NCBI GenBank assembly: GCA_030040965.1
Contig: JASHOT010000244.1
Span: 1 to 51,324, forward strand
Length of the DNA stretch: 51,324 nt
Reading direction: 5' to 3'
Source of the DNA: Candidatus Sulfotelmatobacter sp.
GTDB taxonomy: Bacteria > Acidobacteriota > Terriglobia > Terriglobales > Acidobacteriaceae
Of the stretch, positions 43,699-46,841 are shown one piece after another. Both the position numbers and the translations under genes were made by a program. Position 1 is the first letter of the stretch, and every line of letters begins with the position of its first letter. The notes beneath the pieces are model-generated. The model was not told the DNA's origin and did not search any database. It worked only from the letters and a program-made list of their open reading frames with translations.

Positions 43699-43773
43699 GG
43701 CGCTATCGTCTAGGGGTTAGGACGGAAGATTCTCAATCTTCAAACCCGGGTTCGATTCCCGGTAGCGCTACCA
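43699..43773 (+). tRNA. tRNA-Glu (anticodon CUC)
   Basis: Complete cloverleaf with encoded CCA: acceptor GGCGCTA (43699-43705) with TAGCGCT (43763-43769), anticodon stem GAAGA/TCTTC with loop TTCTCAA and anticodon CTC at 43732-43734, T arm CCGGG-TTCGATT-CCCGG. The discriminator is A. Its 3' end is the left half of a 55-bp direct repeat and appears to be the integration site of the small island that follows. Confidence 0.95.
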
Positions 43774-43808
43774 ACACTTTTCCATCCTGCTGATTCGTAA
43801 CGCTTTCC
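43754..43808. repeat. attL-like direct repeat (tRNA-Glu 3' end plus flank)
   Basis: Positions 43754-43808 and 45211-45265 are identical at 53 of 55 bases, including the last 20 bases of the tRNA with CCA and 35 bases beyond. Such a duplication of a tRNA 3' end is the standard mark of site-specific integration. Confidence 0.85.
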
Positions 43809-43828
43809 CTTGACGTTATTGCGTTCCC

Positions 43829-44587
43829 GTGCGTACCTTGCCCGAAGTGCCGATCAAGATTGGACAGATTGAAGCGATTTTTCGCTACCCAGTAAAATCC
43901 ATGCGCGGCGAGTCGCTGGACGACGCGGCGCTGGGCTGGCACGGTCTTGATGGCGATAGGCGACTCGCTTTTCGTCGGCTCGACGAGCGCGGCGGATTCC
44001 CTTGGCTCACTGCAAGCAAGCTCCCCGACCTCATCCTCTTCACTCCGCTGCGCGGTAATGGCGCAGACGGCGGCTCGTTGCCAACATGCGTTCGTACACC
44101 AGACGGGGAAGAACTACCCGTCTTTGGAGAGGCTCTATCCGCAGAGGTGGGTAGGCGCTGCGGTCGCCGCGTAGAGATGATGCAATTGAAGCACGGTATT
44201 TTCGACGACGCGAGCGTGTCCGTGATTACCTCTGATACCGTTCGCGAGGTCTGCCGACTCGCTGGGAGAGACGCGGATGTCCGACGATTTCGTCCGAATA
44301 TCGTTGTCCGATCCATGCGTGCCGTTCCTTTTGAGGAAGACGACTGGGTCGGCGGCGTGCTCACTTTCGGCGACGGAGACGATGCACCCGCCGTCGTCGT
44401 AACGATGCGAGACGTTCGCTGCGCGATGGTGAACATCGACCCTGACGACGGGAGCCTTGCACCCGAAGTGCTGAAGGCGACGTTTGCTGCCAATGAGAAC
44501 AATGCGGGGATATACGGTACGGTCACGGGCATTGGGCGACTGGCTGTCGGACAGACCGTCGTTCTTCACCCGTCCCAAATTCCCTAG
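43829..44587 (+). CDS. MOSC-domain protein (beta-barrel plus MOSC)
   Basis: 252 residues from GTG 43829; there is no ATG or good ribosome-binding site, and the start lies only 20 bp after the left repeat. The N-terminal MOSC beta-barrel reads IEAIFRYPVKSMRGESLDDA through GWHGLDGDRRLAF, and the MOSC part includes FRPNIVVRSMRAVPFEEDDW, a conserved-type cysteine in VTMRDVRCAMVNIDP and a C-terminal GIYGTVTGIGRLAVGQTVVL. MOSC proteins bind the molybdenum cofactor or sulfur carriers, as in YcbX and mARC. It is the main cargo of the island. Confidence 0.85.
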   Translation: MRTLPEVPIKIGQIEAIFRYPVKSMRGESLDDAALGWHGLDGDRRLAFRRLDERGGFPWLTASKLPDLILFTPLRGNGADGGSLPTCVRTPDGEELPVFGEALSAEVGRRCGRRVEMMQLKHGIFDDASVSVITSDTVREVCRLAGRDADVRRFRPNIVVRSMRAVPFEEDDWVGGVLTFGDGDDAPAVVVTMRDVRCAMVNIDPDDGSLAPEVLKATFAANENNAGIYGTVTGIGRLAVGQTVVLHPSQIP

Positions 44588-44607
44588 CGCAAGTCGCACC
44601 GCTCTTG

Positions 44608-45021
44608 ATGGCAAAGTTCGCACTGACAAAACGACATGGCGACTGCGAAGAGATCGCCAACCCGTCCACCGCCTACGGTCGGCGACGGCGCAACTGGATT
44701 GACGCCCACGGCTCCGTCTCTGCCGGACAAGTTGTGGATGCTTCATGTGGGAACATACACTGCATCACGCTTCGGCACGCTTATCTCCGTCCAAAGGTCG
44801 AGCAGCCGGGCAAGTACCGCAAGATCGCGGATCGCGTCCAAAGGCTCAAAGTCGGTCAGGACTTTGTGGTTCGCGACGTCGGCACCGACGAGCGGAGCCG
44901 CAACCGATTTCGTTCAGGCTTGCGAGCCGCTGCGCCGCTGGACAGGTTCACGGCGCGAGGGCAGCCGGATGGCAGCATGCGGATCACGAAGGTCGGGGAA
45001 TGGCGAGGCTTTTCAGTCTAG
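44608..45021 (+). CDS. Island gene of unknown function
   Basis: 137 residues from ATG 44608, 20 bp after the MOSC stop. The N-terminal half reads KFALTKRHGDCEEIANPSTA and contains two cysteines (DASCGNIHCIT); the C-terminal half is basic, IADRVQRLKVGQDFVVRDVG then SRNRFRSGLRAAAPLDRFTA and a terminal MRITKVGEWRGF. That second half resembles accessory proteins of mobile elements in general composition, but I recognise no family. An overlapping frame at 44636-45058 is less convincing because it is low in complexity. Confidence 0.5.
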   Translation: MAKFALTKRHGDCEEIANPSTAYGRRRRNWIDAHGSVSAGQVVDASCGNIHCITLRHAYLRPKVEQPGKYRKIADRVQRLKVGQDFVVRDVGTDERSRNRFRSGLRAAAPLDRFTARGQPDGSMRITKVGEWRGFSV

Positions 45022-45154
45022 CGCGGACTTCGAGCAGCGAGAGGGTGCGAGATTTTGAACTACGTTGAACCGTTGAACTACATTTCGCAAAAACCCGCGT
45101 AAAAAAGTCCCATCAATGAAGAGATTTTGGATTTGCAATTTTCTCTGAAAACCC

Positions 45155-45186
45155 TTGACTGGTGGGGATTTCCGCATGATTATAGG
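45155..45186 (+). promoter_or_regulatory. Possible promoter pointing out of the island
   Basis: TTGACT (45155-45160) and ATTATA/TATAGG (45179-45186) lie 18-20 bases apart, reading towards the right repeat. It could once have driven a tRNA-like or recombinase transcript. Evidence is only the hexamers. Confidence 0.3.
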
Positions 45187-45210
45187 CGAATCCGGGTTGT
45201 GGCGAGAAGA

Positions 45211-45265
45211 GATTCCCGGTAGCGCTACCAACACTTTTCCATCCCGTTGATTCGTAACGCTTTCC
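45211..45265. repeat. attR-like direct repeat
   Basis: Second copy of the tRNA-Glu 3' end and its flank, differing from the left copy at two positions (T/C and C/T near 45245-45247). The rest of the tRNA is not present upstream of it, so it is not a second tRNA gene. Confidence 0.85.
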
Positions 45266-45299
45266 TGAATTCTCCCTCGCCCGGTGAACGACAGTTGAA

Positions 45300-45939
45300 C
45301 TACATCGGCGCAAAGCTGGAACTTATGTCCTCTTGAGATTGCCATATGCGGTTATACAGATGGCATCGCAAGAGCAGCTCCTGGTGCTTGCCGTTGTCGA
45401 CAACCGCGCCTTCGTGCACCACAATAATTCTGTCGGCCCACAAAGATGGTTGCGGGACGGTGCGAAATAACAACGAGGGTCCGGGCTTTCCGAAATGTAT
45501 TGAGTCCCTGCAGCAAGGCGGCAGCGGTGGGTTCGTCGAGGGCGCTGGTGATCTCGTCCAAAATCAGAATGCTTGGGCTCTGCAACAAAGTACGAGCTAA
45601 TGCTACTCTCTTTTTCTCACCACCGGAGGGACGATTGCCAAGCGGCCCGAGCGGTTCATCGAGCCCTCCCGGGACTTTTGCGAGCACGCGATCGAGTTGG
45701 GTTAGAGCGGCTATGCTGATGAGATCTTCTTCCGTGGCGCGCGGATTGCCGCAAAGAAGATTCTCCCGGATACTTTCATCGAAAAGAATAGGCTCCTGCG
45801 GAACCAACGTGACGACCGAGCGGACATTACGCCGGCTAGCCCTTCGAATGTCCTGGCCGTCCACTAGAATGTGCCCCGATTCGGGCTCGCAGAGCCGCGT
45901 GGCAAGAAGCCCGATGGTACTTTTTCCGGAGCCGCTTGG
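45300..45939 (-). pseudogene. ABC transporter ATPase remnant (5'-truncated and frameshifted)
   Basis: Reading leftwards from about 45939 the sequence gives PSGSGKSTIGLLATRLCEPE (Walker A), VTLVPQEPILFDESIRENL (Q-loop), SGGEKKRVALARTLL (signature) and SILILDEITSALDEPTAAAL (Walker B), then ISHRPATIF. Near 45440 one extra base shifts the frame; in the next frame the family end continues as ADRIIVVHEGAVVDNGKHQE and stops at 45300. Everything upstream of Walker A, including any membrane domain, is missing and replaced by the tail of another gene. It is an exporter-type nucleotide-binding domain that cannot be functional as it stands. Confidence 0.8.
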
Positions 45940-46841
45940 GATTCGACGGTCAACTTCGTTGGCTGTAAATTGCCTAACGAGTCGACTAAGAGCAGTTGGG
46001 TTATGAGGGCGACGCCCTCCAGAGCGCGTTCATTGTTAGGATCGTCATCGGGCAGAGAATTGAGAAACTTTTTGAGATTGCGCTGGCGATGCACCGGCTT
46101 CACAAAAACCCGGCTGACTCTTCGATACTCAGCCGCGTCATCGTGCTCGCGAGGCAAGAACCATGCCACTTCCACCCACCCGCTGTTCTTGCCAAACACA
46201 TCGGGGAACGACTGCTGGGATACGACAGCCGGGTAGTTTTCCGGGAGTGTTCTTATTTCCGCTTCTGTCAGAGCGATCTTCCGAATCAGACGCCCAATCA
46301 GATCGTGAACCATTTTTCTTCTTTCACCCAGAGCCTTTTCATCGTCGGGGAGAAAACCGACGGATAGTTCGTCATAAGCCGCCCATAGATCGTTCTGCAT
46401 CATGGCTCGTGCCGCTGCCGGCCGGGGAGAGTTCTCGTCAAGTGCAGATCTCAGAGCGTCTGCAAGTTGCGCGTATGCCGGATCACGCAAGACCAGCATG
46501 CTCCCGAAGCCGATGGAGAAAGTCGGATACATCGGGTCGATGGCGTGATCGCCGATTTCGTCCCGTTGCAAGACGTTCTTGCTGATCGGAATATCCTGCC
46601 CCACGTTGGCAAAAGGCGCACCTTGCGGAAAGTCGGCGGAGAGGCGCACATCCAGACGCCGCGAAAACAAAAAGAAGAAGATCTTGTTTCACGGATCGTC
46701 CGCCCGTGTGGAATAGATAAGCGCGGGCGCATCAGGCAGTGTCACACGTGGCAAGTCGGATGATGCCCTTTGCCCGTGCAAAGGACCAGCAAAAACCGAC
46801 AAAACAACCACGATAAAACAGCAACTTCCCCAAGTGTGCAT
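45864..46841 (-). pseudogene. Secreted protein of unknown function, interrupted by an in-frame stop and fused at its 3' end
   Basis: ATG 46841 begins a signal peptide (CCFIVVVLSVFAGPLHGQ) and the frame stops at TGA 46689-46691 (codon 51). The same frame continues with family-like sequence for another 250 residues: IFFFLFSRRLDVRLSADFPQ, DPMYPTFSIGFGSMLVLRDP, GKNSGWVEVAWFLPREHDDA. A TGG-to-TGA change would explain the stop. At about 45940 the coding sequence runs into the ABC remnant and ends in out-of-frame ABC sequence. I do not recognise the family. A TTG at 46670 could restart translation, but the product would lack its signal peptide. Confidence 0.65.

Follow-up and report, generated by a model that had tools for sequence, protein, structure and literature searches.

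A MOSC gene between two copies of a tRNA-Glu(CUC) end in Candidatus Sulfotelmatobacter: a probable residue of stacked integrative elements

The closest described systems are the CIMEs and the genomic islands at ssrA of Dehalococcoides. In the passages of PMC5704250 that deal with them, CIMEs (cis-mobilizable elements, products of the decay of an ICE or IME and of tandem accretion) are elements that have lost their integration and transfer genes, have kept their att sites and then undergo accretion by a newcomer. Among the Dehalococcoides islands, the relevant part of PMC3146451 counts 15 without integration modules.

Here we describe a locus of similar appearance in a draft genome of Candidatus Sulfotelmatobacter sp. 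(5.87 Mb in 437 contigs, 93.6% complete). The window, i.e. the whole stretch of DNA that was analyzed, is contig 76 with a length of 51,324 bases. In our reading the locus is very probably what decay has left of two or more integrative elements specific for tRNA-Glu(CUC) that were stacked at one site, a CIME-like relic formed by accretion and deletion. This reading is built on the repeats, the arm sites, the layout of the element family, the colinearity with the congener G023 and the sequences of the junctions, all of which are directly observed. The parts of the locus are interesting, and its kind is already known. Its features are as follows (coordinates in the window, strand, description).

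43699..43773, + strand: tRNA-Glu(CUC), the target gene, called by ARAGORN
43754..43808, + strand: left repeat, consisting of the last 20 nt of the tRNA and 35 nt of an integrase-side element end, without an arm site behind it
43804..43808, + strand: probable deletion joint at TTTC, from alignments of element ends and MOSC upstream regions
43810..43839, + strand: conserved promoter-like TTGACG-18-TACCTT of MOSC, identified by eye from the alignment; the promoter scan did not call it
43847..44587, + strand: intact MOSC gene (MOSC_N and MOSC); the ORF start is listed at 43829, the likely start is GTG at 43847
44608..45021, + strand: ORF2, a 137-aa protein read from ATG at 44608; its homologues are HNH_3-like at scores below cut-off and are located close to att ends or integrases
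45055..45081, + strand: element-end (P-type) arm sites TTGAACTAC at 45055 and 45073, with the layout of the G001 and G035 ends
45155..45183, + strand: promoter-like TTGACT-17-GATTAT directed across the right repeat, a consensus match only
45211..45265, + strand: right repeat, consisting of the 20 nt of the tRNA 3' end and 35 nt; apparent junction core between two element ends
45266..45305, + strand: apparent integrase-side (P'-type) end of another (second) element, with arms GTGAACGAC at 45284 and TTGAACTAC at 45295
45352..45942, − strand: remnant of an ABC ATPase, truncated so that it begins at Walker A (by eye) and has no membrane part

The left repeat (43754-43808) and the right repeat (45211-45265) are identical at 53 of 55 positions, with 2 mismatches and a spacing of 1457. 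No third copy was found in the 5.87-Mb draft. A preliminary description of this DNA had claimed that the tRNA-Glu end recurs nearly identically 1457 bp downstream and that the repeats bracket two genes without a recombinase. Both statements hold: the repeat was found in these two places only in the draft, and the bracket contains MOSC and ORF2 with no match to the integrase queries. The 55-bp repeat described there is real as well, but it is not a clean att core, as the repeat common to both ends of the element in G001 is 37 bp long. In the window the repeat continues into element-end sequence and ends where the left copy meets MOSC.

A 24-nt piece of the 35 nt past the tRNA was found with up to 3 mismatches in three of 398 family genomes, namely our own (both copies), G035 and G279; the reversed control had no match in the 398 genomes. 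The 35 nt look like element sequence. In G279, which belongs to the same family and to another genus, tRNA-Glu is followed by these 35 nt and then by the right outer flank of the window, up to GTTGAACTACAT (95 nt, 92%). Across the 55 nt, G279 has 1 difference to the left copy and 3 to the right copy. The two mismatches between the repeats could be point mutations rather than marks of two origins. In G005 (L064:8993-9034), tRNA-Glu continues into 22 nt from the start of the same element end before unrelated DNA follows, perhaps another truncated scar.

A tRNA-Glu query found a match in 41 of the 45 genomes of the genus. At 29 congener loci, 40 nt of the 3' flank could be read, and these represent 24 different flanks (70% ungapped cut-off). 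In G020 and G025 the tRNA 3' end is repeated 11.4 and 9.9 kb away, respectively, with an integrase inside. Within the genus, tRNA-Glu(CUC) is a hotspot of integration. The layout of the element family is tRNA-Glu, core, paired arm sites and a tyrosine integrase reading away from the tRNA. The integrase behind tRNA-Glu is open in G001 (451 aa, PF00589 above cut-off). In G309 its longer piece scores above the PF00589 cut-off and the frame is broken near the N-terminus. In G356 it is a 294-aa fragment below the Pfam cut-off, where the frame after the arms starts with MGTVTVAIYERVK. G279 retains a broken remnant of the integrase N-terminus (E 4e-4), and in G367 a short stub is left before a stop. 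The best other matches of the G356 fragment lie on G309:C180 (46%) and G001:C144 (35%), both directly behind tRNA-Glu; 26 of 53 genomes matched in this comparison, mostly weakly.

According to the lambda-type model, att sites are composed of a core and of arm sites, and we apply these terms here. The arms are element-specific: TTGTCCCAA at both ends of the G001 element, TTGTGACTA in G309 (only the tRNA side was seen) and TTGAACTAC in G356, G279, G367 and the window. A search for the arm pair with at most 2 mismatches matched seven of 398 family genomes (reversed control: 1 match). The pair is located directly behind tRNA-Glu in the window, G279, G356 and G367 (the last with two mismatches), and away from any tRNA found in three of the seven (G079, G154 and G357, two mismatches each). 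None of these genomes yielded a complete element that combines TTGAACTAC arms with an open integrase; the type is represented by the G356 fragment and by the scars in G279 and G367. The elements of G001, G023 and G309 each span contigs.

The far end of the G001 element, on another contig, carries TTTGTCCCAA twice, 171 and 161 bp before the copy of the tRNA 3' end. G035, from the same genus, has TTTGTCCC arms 171 and 161 bp to the left of the core, as in G001 (77% over 221 nt). To the right of this core, G035 continues with 35 nt of the TTGAACTAC type and, further on, with only a loose likeness to the P' flank. The G035 site appears to be a mixed junction of two elements that formed independently, which suggests that stacking occurred more than once in the genus.

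Taken together, these loci outline a family of integrative elements at tRNA-Glu(CUC) that is found in Sulfotelmatobacter-like Acidobacteriota and can be recognized by arm repeats near the element ends. As far as the listed titles and the openings of the abstracts go, no match from the literature on CIMEs and accretion, tRNA islands of Acidobacteria, tRNA-Glu elements or MOSC islands describes such a family, and a literature search for a Sulfotelmatobacter integrase gave 0 matches. Pattern scans of IMG/VR for core and arms also gave 0 matches, no relative of the G356 integrase was confirmed in IMG/VR, and a PDB sequence search with the G001 integrase had 0 matches.

Other arrangements of the target gene were seen as well. 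In G017:C141 (L068, 6728-7217) an intact, divergent tRNA-Glu(CUC) stands 415 bp behind a 5' half of tRNA-Glu. The DNA between the two copies encodes, as judged by eye, the end of a tyrosine recombinase, which suggests an element by which the 3' half of the tRNA was replaced. In G015:C19 (L067, 6088-7060) tRNA-Glu is present as two partial copies approximately 900 bp apart, and ARAGORN called no intact tRNA there. An assembly gap is possible at this position, because each partial copy has two N.

At the right junction of the window, TTGAACTAC accounts for two arms 156 and 138 bp before the right core and for one behind it. These are three exact copies in the 51-kb window (45055, 45073 and 45295), where ~0.4 would be expected; a degenerate copy, GTGAACGAC, is located at 45284. 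The 12-base, arm-like sequence reported earlier on both sides of the right repeat is real, with TTGAACTAC as its core. Since arms of one motif flank the right repeat on both sides, it would be the junction of two elements and not the edge of a single island. A core with arms of a single system to its left and right would be expected for such a two-element junction, or for a circle. The homology of the right flank to G279 ends at 45305, immediately after the arm. We considered the right outer flank as an integrase C-terminus and rejected this, as the integrase of G356 starts there and reads away. Its arms and the integrase remnants also count against plain native chromosome, a rival that is weighed below.

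Promoter-like consensus sites were found three times in 1.8 kb (0.6 expected), including the one directed across the right repeat. ICEclc is known for promoters that drive the integrase only once the circle is closed. Further to the right, the ABC ATPase remnant abuts an unrelated reading frame (45864-46670, no Pfam match), marking the DNA beyond the junction as a putative decay zone.

At the left end, the window switches from the element end (GCTTTCC) to MOSC (CTTGAC) at TTTC, a stretch common to the element end and to the region upstream of MOSC in relatives (CAGTTTCGCTTGAC). This upstream region reads CAGTTTC(G/A)CTTGAC in G035, G114 and G154, and CTTGAC is invariant in all four aligned sequences. 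Homology to the MOSC region of the window starts at 43804 in both G114 and G154. G035 is no independent witness for this start, because the query that found it began at 43804. Of the 11 nt preceding TTTC, 7 are identical between the window and G035 (4 in G114 and 3 in G154), so the joint possibly lies a few nt further to the left. The left repeat has the appearance of a broken, armless element end that was joined to the promoter of MOSC, probably when sequence was deleted at or near TTTC. A deletion between two TTTC stretches would account for the missing arm, the missing integrase and the odd length of 55 bp in one step. The direction of the event, its single step and its exact joint are what we infer from these alignments.

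The MOSC protein scores above both Pfam cut-offs (PF03473, 45.4 bits against 22.7; PF03476, 30.7 bits against 25). Its dN/dS is 0.20-0.25 against three relatives. NCBIfam profiles and a PDB sequence search with this protein gave 0 matches each. MOSC was rejected as an element-specific gene: the protein matches 46 of 200 family genomes, some of them distantly. Its neighbors, recognized by eye, are presumably MutS2- and HemB-like in G154 and, as we take it, peptidase- and TPR-like in G114. In G035 it lies on a contig without any tRNA found, and no ORF2 follows it.

We regard ORF2 as a real gene, because it aligns over its full length with three homologues (74-76% identity) at a dN/dS of 0.20-0.29. 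By these comparisons MOSC and ORF2 are both intact and have evolved under constraint. The best ORF2 homologue reaches 20.5 bits against HNH_3 (PF13392), which is below the curated cut-off of 24.8, and the protein of the window has no match to PF13392 at E up to 10. All four aligned ORF2 proteins contain the stretch VVxASCxN, which we take to be without the catalytic His of the HNH motif. With this His apparently missing, ORF2 may be a binding rather than a cutting protein.

ORF2 matches were obtained in 6 of 300 family genomes and in further members of the genus; there was no match among phages and plasmids. Full-length copies with readable flanks are present at six loci (window, G023, G309, G033, G014 and G092), and each of them has an att end, an integrase or both within ~1.3 kb. 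This count leaves aside G035:C51 (contig edge), fragments in G030 and G035:C205, and weak matches in G242. The G033 locus contains an integrase above the PF00589 cut-off and tRNA-Met, the G014 locus a 403-aa recombinase (22.7 bits, cut-off 27.1) and tRNA-Asn, and the G092 locus an HTH gene and a tRNA-Leu fragment (by eye). An ORF2-type gene is found near att ends or integrases for tRNA-Glu, tRNA-Thr, tRNA-Met, tRNA-Asn and probably tRNA-Leu (window 44608-45021; L137, L138, L139, L186, L187). Given its position at element ends or near integrases for different tRNAs, ORF2 is usable as a marker to find such elements.

A search of the genus with the 1.4-kb segment (45 genomes; 8 candidates scored in nearly all) matched 12 of the 45, our own included. 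Besides our own genome, both genes are joined only in G023. There, MOSC-ORF2 is colinear over 890 nt (83%), and the match begins at the contig edge inside MOSC. Behind ORF2, G023 has four GCTGCACAA-like repeats and then an orphan 3' end of tRNA-Thr. The intact tRNA-Thr(CGT) of G023 is located on another contig, with an integrase end directly behind it that is 71% identical to that of the tRNA-Thr element in G309. The end of the G309 element has ORF2 in the same place. The G023 integrase is tied to MOSC-ORF2 solely through the shared tRNA-Thr end, because the element is split over two contigs. G014 and G035 contain both MOSC and ORF2, on different contigs. We rejected a recent transfer of the whole MOSC-ORF2 unit, as the joined pair is confined to our own genome and G023 among the 45. 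The segment of MOSC, ORF2, arms and core resembles the right end of an integrative element that targets a tRNA, of a kind present in relatives in pieces or nearly whole.

The G309 contig with the ORF2-attR end (L154:344-7167; L139, L153) also encodes a type IIG restriction enzyme and a short pAgo (PADLOC pAgo_I, E 2e-195) together with a TIR partner (PADLOC Aga_TIR, E 6e-122). This set is likely a defence cargo of the G309 tRNA-Thr element, which is split over two contigs.

We propose the following course of events, the order of which we infer. Elements of this family would integrate at the 3' end of tRNA-Glu, with the integrase gene just inside the tRNA-side end, behind two arm sites. At the far end, arm sites would be located ~140-170 bp before the repeated tRNA 3' end. 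An earlier element would have left a scar composed of tRNA, core and P' arm, like those of G279 and G367. A newcomer would then have integrated as the second element at the same tRNA, so that the old P' arm was pushed to the right of the new P arm-core end. A deletion, probably at the TTTC microhomology, would have removed the left arm, the integrase and the inner cargo of this second element. In the same event the first 35 nt of its end would have been fused to the promoter of the right-end pair MOSC-ORF2. The unit would now persist as an ordinary resident MOSC gene together with ORF2. Without an integrase and a left arm, MOSC-ORF2 should not move as a normal unit and is presumably immobile. 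The earlier suggestion of an element shrunk to its cargo gains support from the right end, which has the same layout as in relatives, and from the left repeat, an element end that lacks arms. Micro-islands without an integrase can arise by erosion and need not be new mobile units; here the junctions are resolved at the base level.

The other suggestion of the preliminary description was a cargo moved in trans. MOSC-ORF2 would then be a non-autonomous unit for which an integrase encoded elsewhere carries out excision and integration, with a 1.4-kb circle as the mobile form. It would have two direct repeats and paired arms at the right repeat at its disposal, and the genome contains 25 integrase-domain matches elsewhere as well as three remote matches to the family integrase (26-34% identity). 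However, the left repeat has no arm sites, the homology of MOSC meets the repeat at the likely deletion joint, and the repeats differ at 2 of 55 positions. Moreover, our own genome has no close relative of the tRNA-Glu integrase (best E 1e-12, 30%), and the only other joined pair among the 45 genus genomes, in G023, stands at a tRNA-Thr end. We consider mobilization in trans quite unlikely and see no support for this suggestion. That the tRNA flank was duplicated locally, or that the assembly is misjoined at the repeat, is very unlikely in view of the colinear MOSC-ORF2 in G023, the similar kind of junction in G035 and the arm motif matches on both sides. Nevertheless, in a draft of 437 contigs, a misjoin at the repeat keeps a small residual chance.

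The right flank could also be the native half of attB, left by a single insertion at an element-free tRNA-Glu, with the arm-like repeats there by coincidence. G279 indeed has tRNA, core and right flank without MOSC, as an empty site would, and the flank could be old, since G279, G356 and G367 belong to other genera. On the other hand, the flank bears the same 9-mer arm as the inner end of the island, once exact and once degenerate. It recurs in three genera, whereas the flanks of congeners are highly variable; an integrase or its remnant lies behind it in G356 and G279; and directly behind the arm, at 45305, the homology to G279 breaks off. A single insertion is improbable on this evidence. 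The proposed check for empty sites had a divided outcome: G279, G356 and G367 display tRNA, core and arm with no MOSC in between, but the DNA of the window to the right of 45305 was in none of the relatives' loci compared. There is, finally, a slim chance that the polarity is reversed and the locus still switchable, with the left repeat (tRNA-core) acting as attB and the right one (P arm-core-P' arm) as attP. The cognate integrase of a newcomer would then excise MOSC-ORF2 by the integration reaction alone, without an excisionase. A scar tRNA-core-P' would remain, as in G279, reading tRNA-core-GAACGACAGTTGAACTAC, and the reverse capture would need an excisionase. Each newcomer would in this way purge decayed islands.

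As a decayed residue of stacked elements, the locus is similar to CIMEs, as far as the cited passages describe them: it has no integration genes, its repeat ends are kept, and it is stacked beside the end of another element at one tRNA, in line with their path of decay followed by accretion. Its bounds are the 55-nt direct repeats, with arm sites lacking at the left copy and an apparent two-element junction at the right. Inside, there are no integration or transfer genes, only MOSC and ORF2 without an integrase match. The segment is colinear with the G023 element end, and an element end is fused to the MOSC promoter, presumably by deletion. Accretion at the same site is represented by the P arm-core-P' arm arrangement at 45055-45303, and G035 has a similar mixed junction. 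Compared with the CIMEs of those passages, the unit differs in its left end without an arm and in its tiny size (1.4 kb). Since the left site has no arms, it would be more eroded than a CIME, and even mobilization in cis may be lost. The Dehalococcoides islands, in the part of the source considered, resemble it in their tandem arrangement at one RNA gene, in being split by repeats of the 3' end of this gene and in that some are integrase-less. They differ in that a serine recombinase and ssrA are involved there, and a tyrosine integrase and tRNA-Glu here. With no integrase between its repeats, the segment is also distinct from an autonomous tyrosine-integrase island. The islands of G020, G025 and G001 from the same genus share the tRNA-Glu target, the direct repeat of the tRNA 3' end and an integrase at one end; those of G020 and G025 comprise ~10 kb including the integrase (that of G001 is on two contigs), whereas the window contains a remnant.
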